64,000 nucleotides of DNA from Pseudomonas mandelii (GTDB lineage: Bacteria > Pseudomonadota > Gammaproteobacteria > Pseudomonadales > Pseudomonadaceae): assembly GCF_900106065.1 (NCBI RefSeq), contig NZ_LT629796.1:3131501-3195500 (forward strand). The letters are read 5' to 3'. Within the stretch, counting starts at the first letter, position 1. Every line of letters begins with the position of its first letter. A program made the translations under genes and the position numbers. The notes under the pieces are model-generated. The model saw only the letters and a program-made list of their open reading frames with translations. It searched no databases and was not told where the DNA came from. Of this stretch, positions 50,907 through 53,032 are shown piece by piece.

Positions 50907-51020
50907 TGAATATCTCCAGCGCGGGCGGGGCTAAAAGGCGCTGGAGTATACGGCATGGGGACGGGCTGGAGGATTGACCTGCGGCAGTGTGTCGCAGTCA
51001 TTCGTCGCCTGTGCCGGCCT

Positions 51021-51093
51021 TATCGCGAGCAGGCTCCTACAAGGGGTCTTCGGTGTTCGGGAGATCCACTGTAGGAGTGAGCCTGCTCGCGAT
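51021..51093. repeat. REPIN, type GTAGGAGTGAGCCTGCTCGC, one short arm
   Basis: Left arm TATCGCGAGCAGGCTCCTAC lacks four bases relative to the right arm TGTAGGAGTGAGCCTGCTCG, so the outer stem is broken. The spacer is about 28 bases. It lies eight bases past the end of the Lrp-family gene. Confidence 0.8.
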
Positions 51094-51100
51094 GGGGACA

Positions 51101-51583
51101 TCAGCTGCGCAGATGAGTCAACGGCAGCTCGGTACTATTGAGCACCTGATTCAACACAAAACTCGAACGAACGCTGGTCACCCCTTCAATCCGGGTCAAA
51201 TGCCCCAGCAGCAGTTTCTGGTAGTGATCCATGTCCGGCACCACAACCTTGAGTTGATAATCTGCATCCATCCCCGTCACCAAGCTGCATTCCAGCACCT
51301 GCGGCAACGTTCGAATCGCGGCTTCAAAGTTCTCGAAACGCTCCGGCGTATGGCGGTCCATGCCGATCAGCACGTAAGCCGTGAGGCTCAAGCCGAGCAT
51401 CTTGCGGTCCAGCAGCGCCACCTGGCGGGTGATGTAGCCGTCGTCTTCCAGTTGCTTGACCCGGCGCGAGCAAGGCGAAGGCGACAGGCCGATGCGTTCG
51501 GCCAGCTCCTGGTTGGAGATGCGCGCGTCACGCTGCAATTCCGCCAAAATGCTCAAGTCGTATCGGTCGAGTTTGCTCATCAA
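51101..51583 (-). CDS. Lrp/AsnC-family transcriptional regulator
   Basis: A 160-residue amino-acid-responsive regulator. The N-terminal helix-turn-helix has LDRYDLSILAELQRDARISN and ERIGLSPSPCSRRVKQLED; the C-terminal RAM domain has LECSLVTGMDADYQLKVVVP. Its gene diverges from a presumed RNA gene with TTGCGCAA-like sites between them, so it probably regulates itself and that transcript. The ligand is unknown. Confidence 0.92.
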   Translation of the reverse strand: MMSKLDRYDLSILAELQRDARISNQELAERIGLSPSPCSRRVKQLEDDGYITRQVALLDRKMLGLSLTAYVLIGMDRHTPERFENFEAAIRTLPQVLECSLVTGMDADYQLKVVVPDMDHYQKLLLGHLTRIEGVTSVRSSFVLNQVLNSTELPLTHLRS

Positions 51584-51601: not shown

Positions 51602-51670
51602 TATTGCGGCAGATTATCTATCCAGGGTTAAAAATTGCGCAAGTGATGTTTAATTGAGCAATCTTCGCAA
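51602..51670. promoter_or_regulatory. candidate Lrp-type operator array
   Basis: TTGCGCAA (51635-51642, a perfect palindrome), TTGAGCAA (51654-51661) and CTTCGCAA (51663-51670), with ATTGCGGC at 51603, lie in the AT-rich gap between the Lrp-family start and the structured-RNA region. The first two centres are 19 bases apart, near two helical turns. Repeated, phased sites are typical for Lrp proteins; binding is inferred. Confidence 0.4.
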
Positions 51671-51704
51671 TCCTCTGCCGGCACTCGCGGCCTATTCTTA
51701 TCAC

Positions 51705-51898
51705 CAGAATCACTGCTCGGACAAACAGTCCATAGCCGCTCGCCGAATCAGGCCGGCGGCGGCCGCCACCCCCACAGGGGATGTGCCGGCCTCCGAGCTA
51801 CACACTGTCCAGAAGACGGCGTGAGGTGAGCCGACGTCATAAGCGTCGAGCACGGACGAAGTTCTCTAAGGGAGGCCGACGGGTCTCCCTTTTCTTTT
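51705..51898 (+). ncRNA. candidate structured RNA of unknown family
   Basis: The region folds into nested stems: GGACA (51719-51723)/TGTCC (51806-51810), GCTCG (51738-51742)/CGAGC (51794-51798) and AGGCCGGC (51750-51757)/GCCGGCCT (51785-51792), with CCCC-ACA-GGGG inside. Two smaller hairpins follow (CGGC/GCCG near 51816-51833; GACG/CGTC near 51833-51848), then a terminator at 51868-51898. TATTCT at 51693 could be the -10. I do not recognise it as a known riboswitch or sRNA. It may act as a free sRNA or as a leader of the 52016 gene. An Arg-rich 48-codon frame (51781-51927) overlaps it and the terminator; I doubt it is translated. Confidence 0.4.
51868..51898 (+). terminator. Rho-independent terminator of the structured-RNA region
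   Basis: AAGGGAG pairs with CTCCCTT, with an inner CC/GG, and is followed by TTCTTTT. It stands 118 bases before the next gene, so it ends or attenuates transcripts from the Lrp-divergent promoter. Confidence 0.8.
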
Positions 51899-52015
51899 GC
51901 CTGGAATTTGAGAGCGGCCCTCAATAAATAAGTTGCGCGACTGATAACCTGTTGCAGAACCGCCCTGTACTTTCCCAGTCTTACGTACAGGCTCTAACCC
52001 GCAGTGAGGAAAAGC

Positions 52016-53032
52016 ATGAAGTCGCGCATCTGGCGTTTGGCCGGTGTTGGTTTGCTGTGTGTGAGTGTCACTGCGCAATCGCTGGCCGATGATCAGCAAA
52101 ACCGTGGTCCCGATGGCGGGCAACGTGGATCGGACGGCCATCAGGGCAACAATCAGGGGCATGGCGGCAATAATCAGCCGCGCCTGCAGGACAACGACAT
52201 CATTCGTGGCGACAACAGCCGCCAGTTCGAGCACAACGGCCAGACTCAGAACAATGGCCAATGGCAGAACCGTCCGCAGCCCGACTACAACAATCCTGTT
52301 CGCTCACCGCCGCCACCCCCGCAGCTCCCGGCCAATGACCTGCCGATCCAGGGTCGCCCCGACGCGGTGCGCCAGACCCAGCAGCCACAGCGTGGTTACT
52401 ATCAGGACAATCCACAGCGCAACAATTACAACCAGCAATGGCAGAACAACGGTCCGCGTCCCGATGATCGTCGTTGGGCGGGTCGTCCGGATGGGCACGG
52501 TAATGGCTGGGGCCCCGGCCCGCAATATCGCCCGGGTCATGTGATCGACCGCTTCCCGGACCGTGACTACCGCGTGCCTTACGGTGGTCGGGATTATTTC
52601 TATTCCGGCGGCTATTGGTATCGCCCACAAGGCCCGCGTTATGTGGTGGTTCAACCGCCTCGCGGGATTCGAGTCAGCTACTTGCCCGATTACGCGCGTG
52701 AGGTGTGGATCGGTGGGGCGCTGCTGTTCCTGGCGGCCGGTTCGTATTACGCCTATCAGGAAAACACTCAGGACTACGTGGTGGTCGAGCCGCCGGTGCA
52801 AATGCAGCCGCAGCCGGTCAGCAACAACTACGACGTGGAGGCCTATCCGGCCAACGGCCAGTCGCCGGAGCAGGTCAACCAGGACGGTTACGAGTGTTAT
52901 CAATACGCGGTGCAGCAAAGTGGCTTCAATCCGCGGACGGCCACCTACCAGCCAGACCCGTCGGTGGTGCAAGCCTACCGCCAGGCTCAAGGTAACTGCC
53001 TGAGCAGTCGCGGCTATCAGGTTTCTTTCTGA
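52016..53032 (+). CDS. secreted Gln/Asn/Pro-rich protein (DUF6515-like)
   Basis: A 338-residue exported protein. The signal peptide ends near VTAQSLADD. Residues about 25-170 are low-complexity, rich in Gln, Asn, Gly and Pro and probably disordered. A Tyr/Pro-rich segment follows (RVPYGGRDYFYSGGYWYRP), then a hydrophobic stretch (EVWIGGALLFLAAGSYYAY) that may insert in a membrane, and a C-terminal region with QDGYECYQYAVQQSGFNP. This resembles the DUF6515 family. ATG at 52016 has AGGAAAAG upstream. Function unknown. Confidence 0.8.
   Translation: MKSRIWRLAGVGLLCVSVTAQSLADDQQNRGPDGGQRGSDGHQGNNQGHGGNNQPRLQDNDIIRGDNSRQFEHNGQTQNNGQWQNRPQPDYNNPVRSPPPPPQLPANDLPIQGRPDAVRQTQQPQRGYYQDNPQRNNYNQQWQNNGPRPDDRRWAGRPDGHGNGWGPGPQYRPGHVIDRFPDRDYRVPYGGRDYFYSGGYWYRPQGPRYVVVQPPRGIRVSYLPDYAREVWIGGALLFLAAGSYYAYQENTQDYVVVEPPVQMQPQPVSNNYDVEAYPANGQSPEQVNQDGYECYQYAVQQSGFNPRTATYQPDPSVVQAYRQAQGNCLSSRGYQVSF

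Follow-up and report, generated by a model that had tools for sequence, protein, structure and literature searches.

The element considered here lies in a 64,000-nucleotide window of Pseudomonas mandelii, in the gap between a gene for an Lrp/AsnC-type regulator (hereafter lrp) and a divergently oriented gene for a DUF6515 protein, the two neighbours that an earlier note, made from the sequence, had already placed there (Table 1). The same note could match the structured RNA of this gap to no known riboswitch; a covariance search of Rfam returned RF00629 (P24, a Pseudomonas sRNA) from end to end, at 51635..51890 on the plus strand (266.6 bits, E 4.9e-76, model positions 1-255, for a gathering cut-off of 100 bits). 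The structured RNA is therefore P24, a family already catalogued, and the element itself is not new; a match to a known family, which the earlier note had named as a refutation, takes away its novelty and leaves its reality untouched. The studied strain differs in nothing from the catalogued P24, which likewise sits between lrp and a gap of the PA3964 type and ends in a terminator. The first ~65 positions of the Rfam model correspond to promoter and operator, and a covariance model restricted to the RNA body (R1), built from 33 P24 sequences, matches 51702-51896 with 173 bits, the P24 of the studied genome (L001) being itself among the training sequences. On the far side of lrp, downstream of the gene, the stretch 51020-51099 holds an inverted pair, TTATCGCGAGCAGGCTCC / GAGTGAGCCTGCTCGCGAT, that looks like a REP-type palindromic element.

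Table 1. Features of the P24 locus, in positions of the window.
Feature	Position	Strand	Basis or remark
Gene of the Lrp/AsnC-type regulator, transcribed divergently to the RNA	51101..51580	-	Pfam AsnC_trans_reg 2.5e-22, HTH_24 7.4e-23
Putative Lrp operator	51603..51672	.	ATTGC at 51603 and 51634; GCAAT at 51658 and 51667; single exact TTGCGCAA at 51635-51642
-10 box TATTCT	51693..51698	+	26 bases after GCAATC (51667); without a good -35
Predicted P24 transcript	51702..51898	+	~190-195 nt; 5' end predicted from the -10 box
Closing stem 51715-51721/51792-51798, enclosing hairpins 51735-51760 and 51761-51791	51715..51798	+	homologous helices 1, 3 and 5 covary
Hairpin CUGUC-(CAGAA)-GACGG, CANRA pentaloop	51805..51819	+	predicted fold
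Hairpin CGACGU-(CAUAA)-GCGUCG, CANRA pentaloop	51832..51848	+	helix 7: two-sided changes at 3/5 pairs
Rho-independent terminator, 10-bp stem 51868-51891 and U-rich tail	51868..51898	+	terminator search
DUF6515 protein gene, neighbour outside the RNA unit	52016..53032	+	PF20125 9.7e-12

The stretch 51700-51895 has a predicted folding energy of -92.4 kcal/mol (z = -5.1, none of 200 shuffles being equally stable), and its minimum-energy fold comprises perfect helices of 5, 7, 6+3, 5+3+4, 3+5, 2+6, 4 and 10 pairs, among which the 5-pair helix corresponds to 51701-51705/51825-51829 and the 7-pair helix to the closing stem of Table 1. The nested stems of 5, 5 and 8 base pairs described earlier are thus broadly present, although these exact lengths were not reproduced, and the strong terminator described with them is indeed an intrinsic terminator with a U-rich tail. 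RNAalifold applied to 33 sequences predicts 37 pairs, 19 of which show pair-keeping changes on both sides. The predicted pairs are paired in 95.2% of cells, compared with 30-46% when partners are slid, a control that is biased toward a structure derived from the same alignment, and the cells with two-sided changes number 112, compared with a mean of 34 in shuffles that ignore relatedness. Because both controls are biased, reliance is placed on the count of pairs changed on both sides, 19 versus 12.4 in shuffles, a value that none of 500 shuffles reaches. The secondary structure of P24 is conserved and covarying. Three short segments (GGAC 51719-51722, GUCC 51728-51731 and GGAC 51854-51857) are all invariant in the 33-sequence alignment, so that GUCC could pair with either GGAC, and these two alternative partners represent a possible switch. 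A CsrA-like stretch near 51774 is not conserved in this alignment.

A terminator-like structure follows P24 at all 56 loci tested (0.6 expected). P24 was reportedly first described by sRNAPredict and northern blotting. As for its expression, two papers indicate that P. aeruginosa P24, between PA3964 and PA3965, is up in biofilms of 77 clinical isolates (log2FC 3.6; PMC6954232), and that an RNA-seq-predicted 202-nt sRNA, called sRNA10 and not named P24, occupies the PA3964-PA3965 gap of PAO1, where it is 2.35-fold down at low shear and marked as not experimentally validated (PMC4981712). P24 is almost certainly a separate small RNA of about 190 nt, transcribed from a promoter of its own in the gap next to lrp and closed by its own terminator.

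Searches with RF00629 found a match in 394/398 genomes of the genus (384 of the 385 of good quality), usually in single copy, two copies being present in 2 of the 398. A sample of the family gives 40/59 genomes with a match, distributed over 15/19 genera, and 20 of these 59 genomes exceed the Rfam cut-off; none of 21 genomes of other families has a match. R1 was applied to 18 Pseudomonadaceae lrp loci without an RF00629 match, covering 18 of the 19 such family genomes: it recognised six more P24 next to lrp, with E values no higher than 2.7e-4 (L123, L126, L127, L128, L129 and L131, all below the Rfam cut-off), and the other 12 gave nothing better than E 0.08. Run across the order under stricter filters, which missed the RF00629-positive genome G432, R1 matched 4/145 genomes, all Pseudomonadaceae. 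The conservation of P24 spans the genus and reaches 15 of the 19 sampled genera of the family; conservation beyond close strains, which the earlier note had set as a check, was thus found, and covariation with it. Although P24 is present in nearly all sampled genomes of the genus, no function for it was found in the literature searched. This search, which reached few subscription journals and did not query leuA leaders, returned no mention of a leuA-leader origin, of the identity of the promoter or of the CANRA motif described below. What the present analysis adds is the set of distant members below the Rfam cut-off, together with the link to leuA leaders.

The coupling of P24 to the regulator gene is near-constant. 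The Lrp-type protein scores under the NCBIfam Lrp cut-off (140 vs 233), has an ortholog in 59/59 genomes of the family (E 1e-60 or better) and a relative in 97/145 genomes of the order (E 1e-40 or better). An orthologous divergent gene is found at 75/75 distinct P24 loci, and the gap from lrp to the start of the RF00629 model measures 55 bases in 64 of these loci and 56 in 7 (71 in total). Three Lrp-like sites had been described on the 5' side: one exact TTGCGCAA and four half-sites are found there (Table 1), not three full TTGCGCAA copies, and the ATTGC/GCAAT half-sites, loosely written, are kept in 71-74 of the 75 loci. The initial two columns of the -10 box are invariant across the 75 aligned loci, and a generic sigma-70 promoter scan of the region gave no match. 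Because the half-sites are conserved over a promoter that has no good -35, we infer that the Lrp-type protein would bind these ATTGC/GCAAT sites, which overlie the weak -35 region, and would adjust the transcription of P24 to an amino-acid signal. On this reading of the sequence, control of P24 by the Lrp-type protein is quite probable. The earlier proposal of an Lrp-controlled sRNA holds well for an Lrp-linked, terminated sRNA, given the constant adjacency to lrp, the terminators, the covariation and the P. aeruginosa transcripts (PMC6954232 and PMC4981712), and the control itself is the part that stays at the level of probability.

The arrangement has counterparts. The enterobacterial GcvA-GcvB pair also places an amino-acid-metabolism regulator divergent from a structured, terminated sRNA of ~200 nt; the likeness is one of arrangement, GcvA being LysR-type whereas the regulator here is Lrp-type. 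In PAO1, PA3965 is one of nine Lrp-type regulators, and three others are said to have a clarified function (PMC8707732). The same paper indicates that BkdR, MdeR, PA2577 and further Lrp-type regulators of local range are likewise divergent from their target; at the locus considered here, Pseudomonadaceae have a non-coding RNA as the divergent unit, and most of the examined loci of other families have leuA.

Outside Pseudomonadaceae, an lrp ortholog was divergent from leuA at 18/25, 36/40 and 18/20 loci in three sets, and the divergent pair occurs in 21 of the 24 other families examined, with leuA neighbours recognised by an LRDGNQ-type motif and one of them (in G055) confirmed by the TIGR00970 profile. 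Within Pseudomonadaceae, leuA was found beside lrp at none of 75 loci (56 with P24 and 19 without an RF00629 match) in flanks of at least 1858 bases, and in the studied genome it lies elsewhere (G000:C1:3598522-3600153, L167). In an Lrp tree of 97 loci, the 32 Pseudomonadaceae proteins form one clade with support 1.0, whose sister, under midpoint rooting and with a single short protein as the basis of the tree, consists of 13 leuA-linked loci.

The two kinds of loci also resemble each other in their control regions. TA(T/A)NNT stands exactly 26 bases after GCAATC at 28 of the first 65 loci of other families, the next-best spacing being found at 4. As the spacing of 26 had been noticed in other loci beforehand, it was tested by 20 further loci alone, where it occurs at 8 and no other spacing exceeds 2. 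Over all 85 loci of other families, the GCAATC-26-TATANT layout is found in 18/24 families, and it is present at 43/75 Pseudomonadaceae loci. A promoter/operator layout is common to P24 and to the lrp-linked leuA of other families. The RNA body behaves differently, as R1, applied to 56 loci, scored no locus of another family better than E 1.9 and recognised no leuA leader. Since R1 misses the leuA leaders, their kinship with P24 is argued from location, from the promoter layout and from the loop motifs, and not from an alignment of the RNA body. At gathering level, Rfam found no leader family at 20 other-family or outlying lrp loci, its one match being an unrelated RNase P at L133. Some leuA leaders are too short to hold any RNA. 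A terminator-like structure is seen in 3/53 leuA leaders (0.3 expected), versus all 56 P24 loci, and it is by gaining a terminator that a leader would become an RNA in its own right.

Several other observations were made around leuA and lrp. Pairing of P24 with the leuA mRNA itself was considered and not used, the duplexes predicted in 23 genomes being weak and unremarkable (mean z -0.94). The Pseudomonas leuA, away from lrp, carries a conserved 25-codon frame 158-194 bases upstream at 8/10 loci (L167, L142, L144, L150, L151, L155, L158 and L162), which reads MKTSHTLIQLRQHRSLCLVSARLPG in the studied genome (L167) and looks like a leader-peptide attenuator; L156 has a shorter and different frame and L160 has none. 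In a single genus of another family, three loci (L099, L101 and L110) show a structured, terminated stretch divergent from the lrp ortholog, and leuA is absent from their examined flank, as in Pseudomonas: these are possibly a second, independent conversion of a leader into an sRNA.

Loop motifs form a further link. A pentaloop of the form CA-N-R-A (CANRA, mostly CACAA) was noticed by eye when leuA leaders were compared with P24, in a discovery set of 37 hand-picked loci where 32 CANRA hairpins were counted for 1.36 expected from dinucleotide shuffles; having been seen in that set, the motif was tested by two held-out sets alone. The first of these yielded 21 hairpins for 1.2 expected and 0 on the reverse strand, distributed over 15/40 loci that represent 10 families, 7 of them absent from the discovery set, and CACAA is there the commonest pentaloop on stems of at least 5 pairs (11/62). 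The second yielded 15 for 0.7 expected, again with 0 on the reverse strand, in 12/20 loci. The held-out loci come from other genomes but are not independent events, because their genera and families are partly shared with the discovery set, and the hairpin is absent from 25/40 and 8/20 of them, respectively. A rerun over the first 65 loci of other families, on a slightly longer stretch, gave 35 hairpins forward and 1 reverse. At P24 loci, 63 are found for 2.2 expected, in 42/56 loci; the P24 of the studied genome holds two, and the window 21 over both strands. CANRA hairpin loops are therefore common to P24 and leuA leaders, though not to every leader. UUACC hairpins are a second motif found both in leuA leaders (L192, L183 and L213) and in P24 (L033 and L065), and a GGUGA downstream in some leuA leaders could pair with the UUACC loop. 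This motif had been noticed in the first held-out set and was tested in L212-L231 alone, the second set, where 5 are counted for 0.22 expected (in 5/20 loci); P24 loci have 12 for 0.53 expected (in 10/56). It is a suggestive second shared loop motif.

Taken together, the favoured reading, to which we give a probability of roughly 0.6, is that P24 is a separate, terminated and Lrp-controlled small RNA derived from a former leuA leader. The site would once have read lrp-leader-leuA; leuA would have left it in the ancestor of Pseudomonadaceae, and the orphaned leader would have gained a terminator and become an Lrp-controlled, trans-acting small RNA. Taken by itself, and judged from sequence comparison, the origin of P24 as a leuA leader is likely. 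How would such an RNA act? As several CA..A hairpins occur per molecule and recur in leuA leaders, P24 may work through its hairpin loops, in the simplest case by binding, or titrating away, a factor that recognises these loops in leuA leaders too, and otherwise by pairing with mRNAs. A loop-binding factor is put forward tentatively, and the fuller proposal, in which P24 is a decapitated leuA leader turned into a core trans-acting RNA, a decoy for a factor reading CANRA (YCANRAG) pentaloops both in P24 and in the present-day leuA leaders of other families, is more doubtful still. CsrB and RsmZ are titrating RNAs in which several hairpins carry one loop motif, GGA, that is also found in mRNA leaders. 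P24 likewise repeats one loop motif, but this, in the conserved loops of the 33-sequence alignment, is mostly CA..A (CANRA) and not GGA; a sponge of the CsrB/RsmZ type with repeated GGA loops was not retained, the invariant GGAC copies being located within a stem and close to the 3' end.

P24 could instead be an ordinary Hfq-type antisense sRNA, Lrp-controlled and arisen anew, which pairs with amino-acid-metabolism mRNAs as GcvB does, the leuA neighbourhood then meaning merely the same regulator with different neighbours and a shared promoter. Such an RNA would account for the U-rich terminator tail and the conserved unpaired stretches of P24 and for the failure of R1 to detect leuA leaders, and the regulator alone would be enough to preserve the promoter layout. 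Against it stand the CANRA hairpins common to P24 and leuA leaders, enriched in both held-out sets on the forward strand only, and we hold this explanation to be unlikely.

The DUF6515 gene offers a target in cis, since it lies on the strand of P24 and ~90-200 bases after it in many close relatives. P24 had been proposed as a terminating leader of that gene, to which a riboswitch or an attenuator may be added. A DUF6515 relative is recognisable in 41/75 P24 flanks, within 650 bases in 34 and more than 1.3 kb off in 7, and none was found in the examined flank of the other 34, in a one-query tblastn that diverged relatives may escape; P24 is kept regardless. In PAO1, moreover, two CpxR boxes located 315 and 326 bases upstream of PA3965 (PMC12802237) fall just past P24, as estimated from the ~55-base gap and the ~257-base model length, which would fit a separate promoter for PA3964; the corresponding GTAAA-N5/6-GTAAA pattern was found at none of the 75 distinct P24 loci. 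With synteny so inconstant, the cis-acting leader was rejected as very improbable, and the variable downstream neighbour suggests that P24 acts in trans. As to a leader-peptide attenuator, the Arg-rich 48-codon frame noted earlier does exist (51781-51927) and extends through the terminator, but it has no Pfam match, and frames reaching 35 codons or more around its position are seen at 4/50 loci, so that this peptide was rejected on conservation and its probability is next to nil.

A separate, Lrp-controlled RNA derived from a leuA leader thus remains the preferred account of P24, and the Lrp-type regulator, the ancestral leuA control region and the loop motif are testable entry points to it, by way of the regulator, a loop-binding factor and leucine metabolism. 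Should the leuA-leader origin hold, P24 would clearly exemplify how an mRNA leader can become an independent small RNA; if P24 also acts as a decoy, it would couple the amino-acid signal of an Lrp-type regulator to the regulon of the factor that reads its loops.
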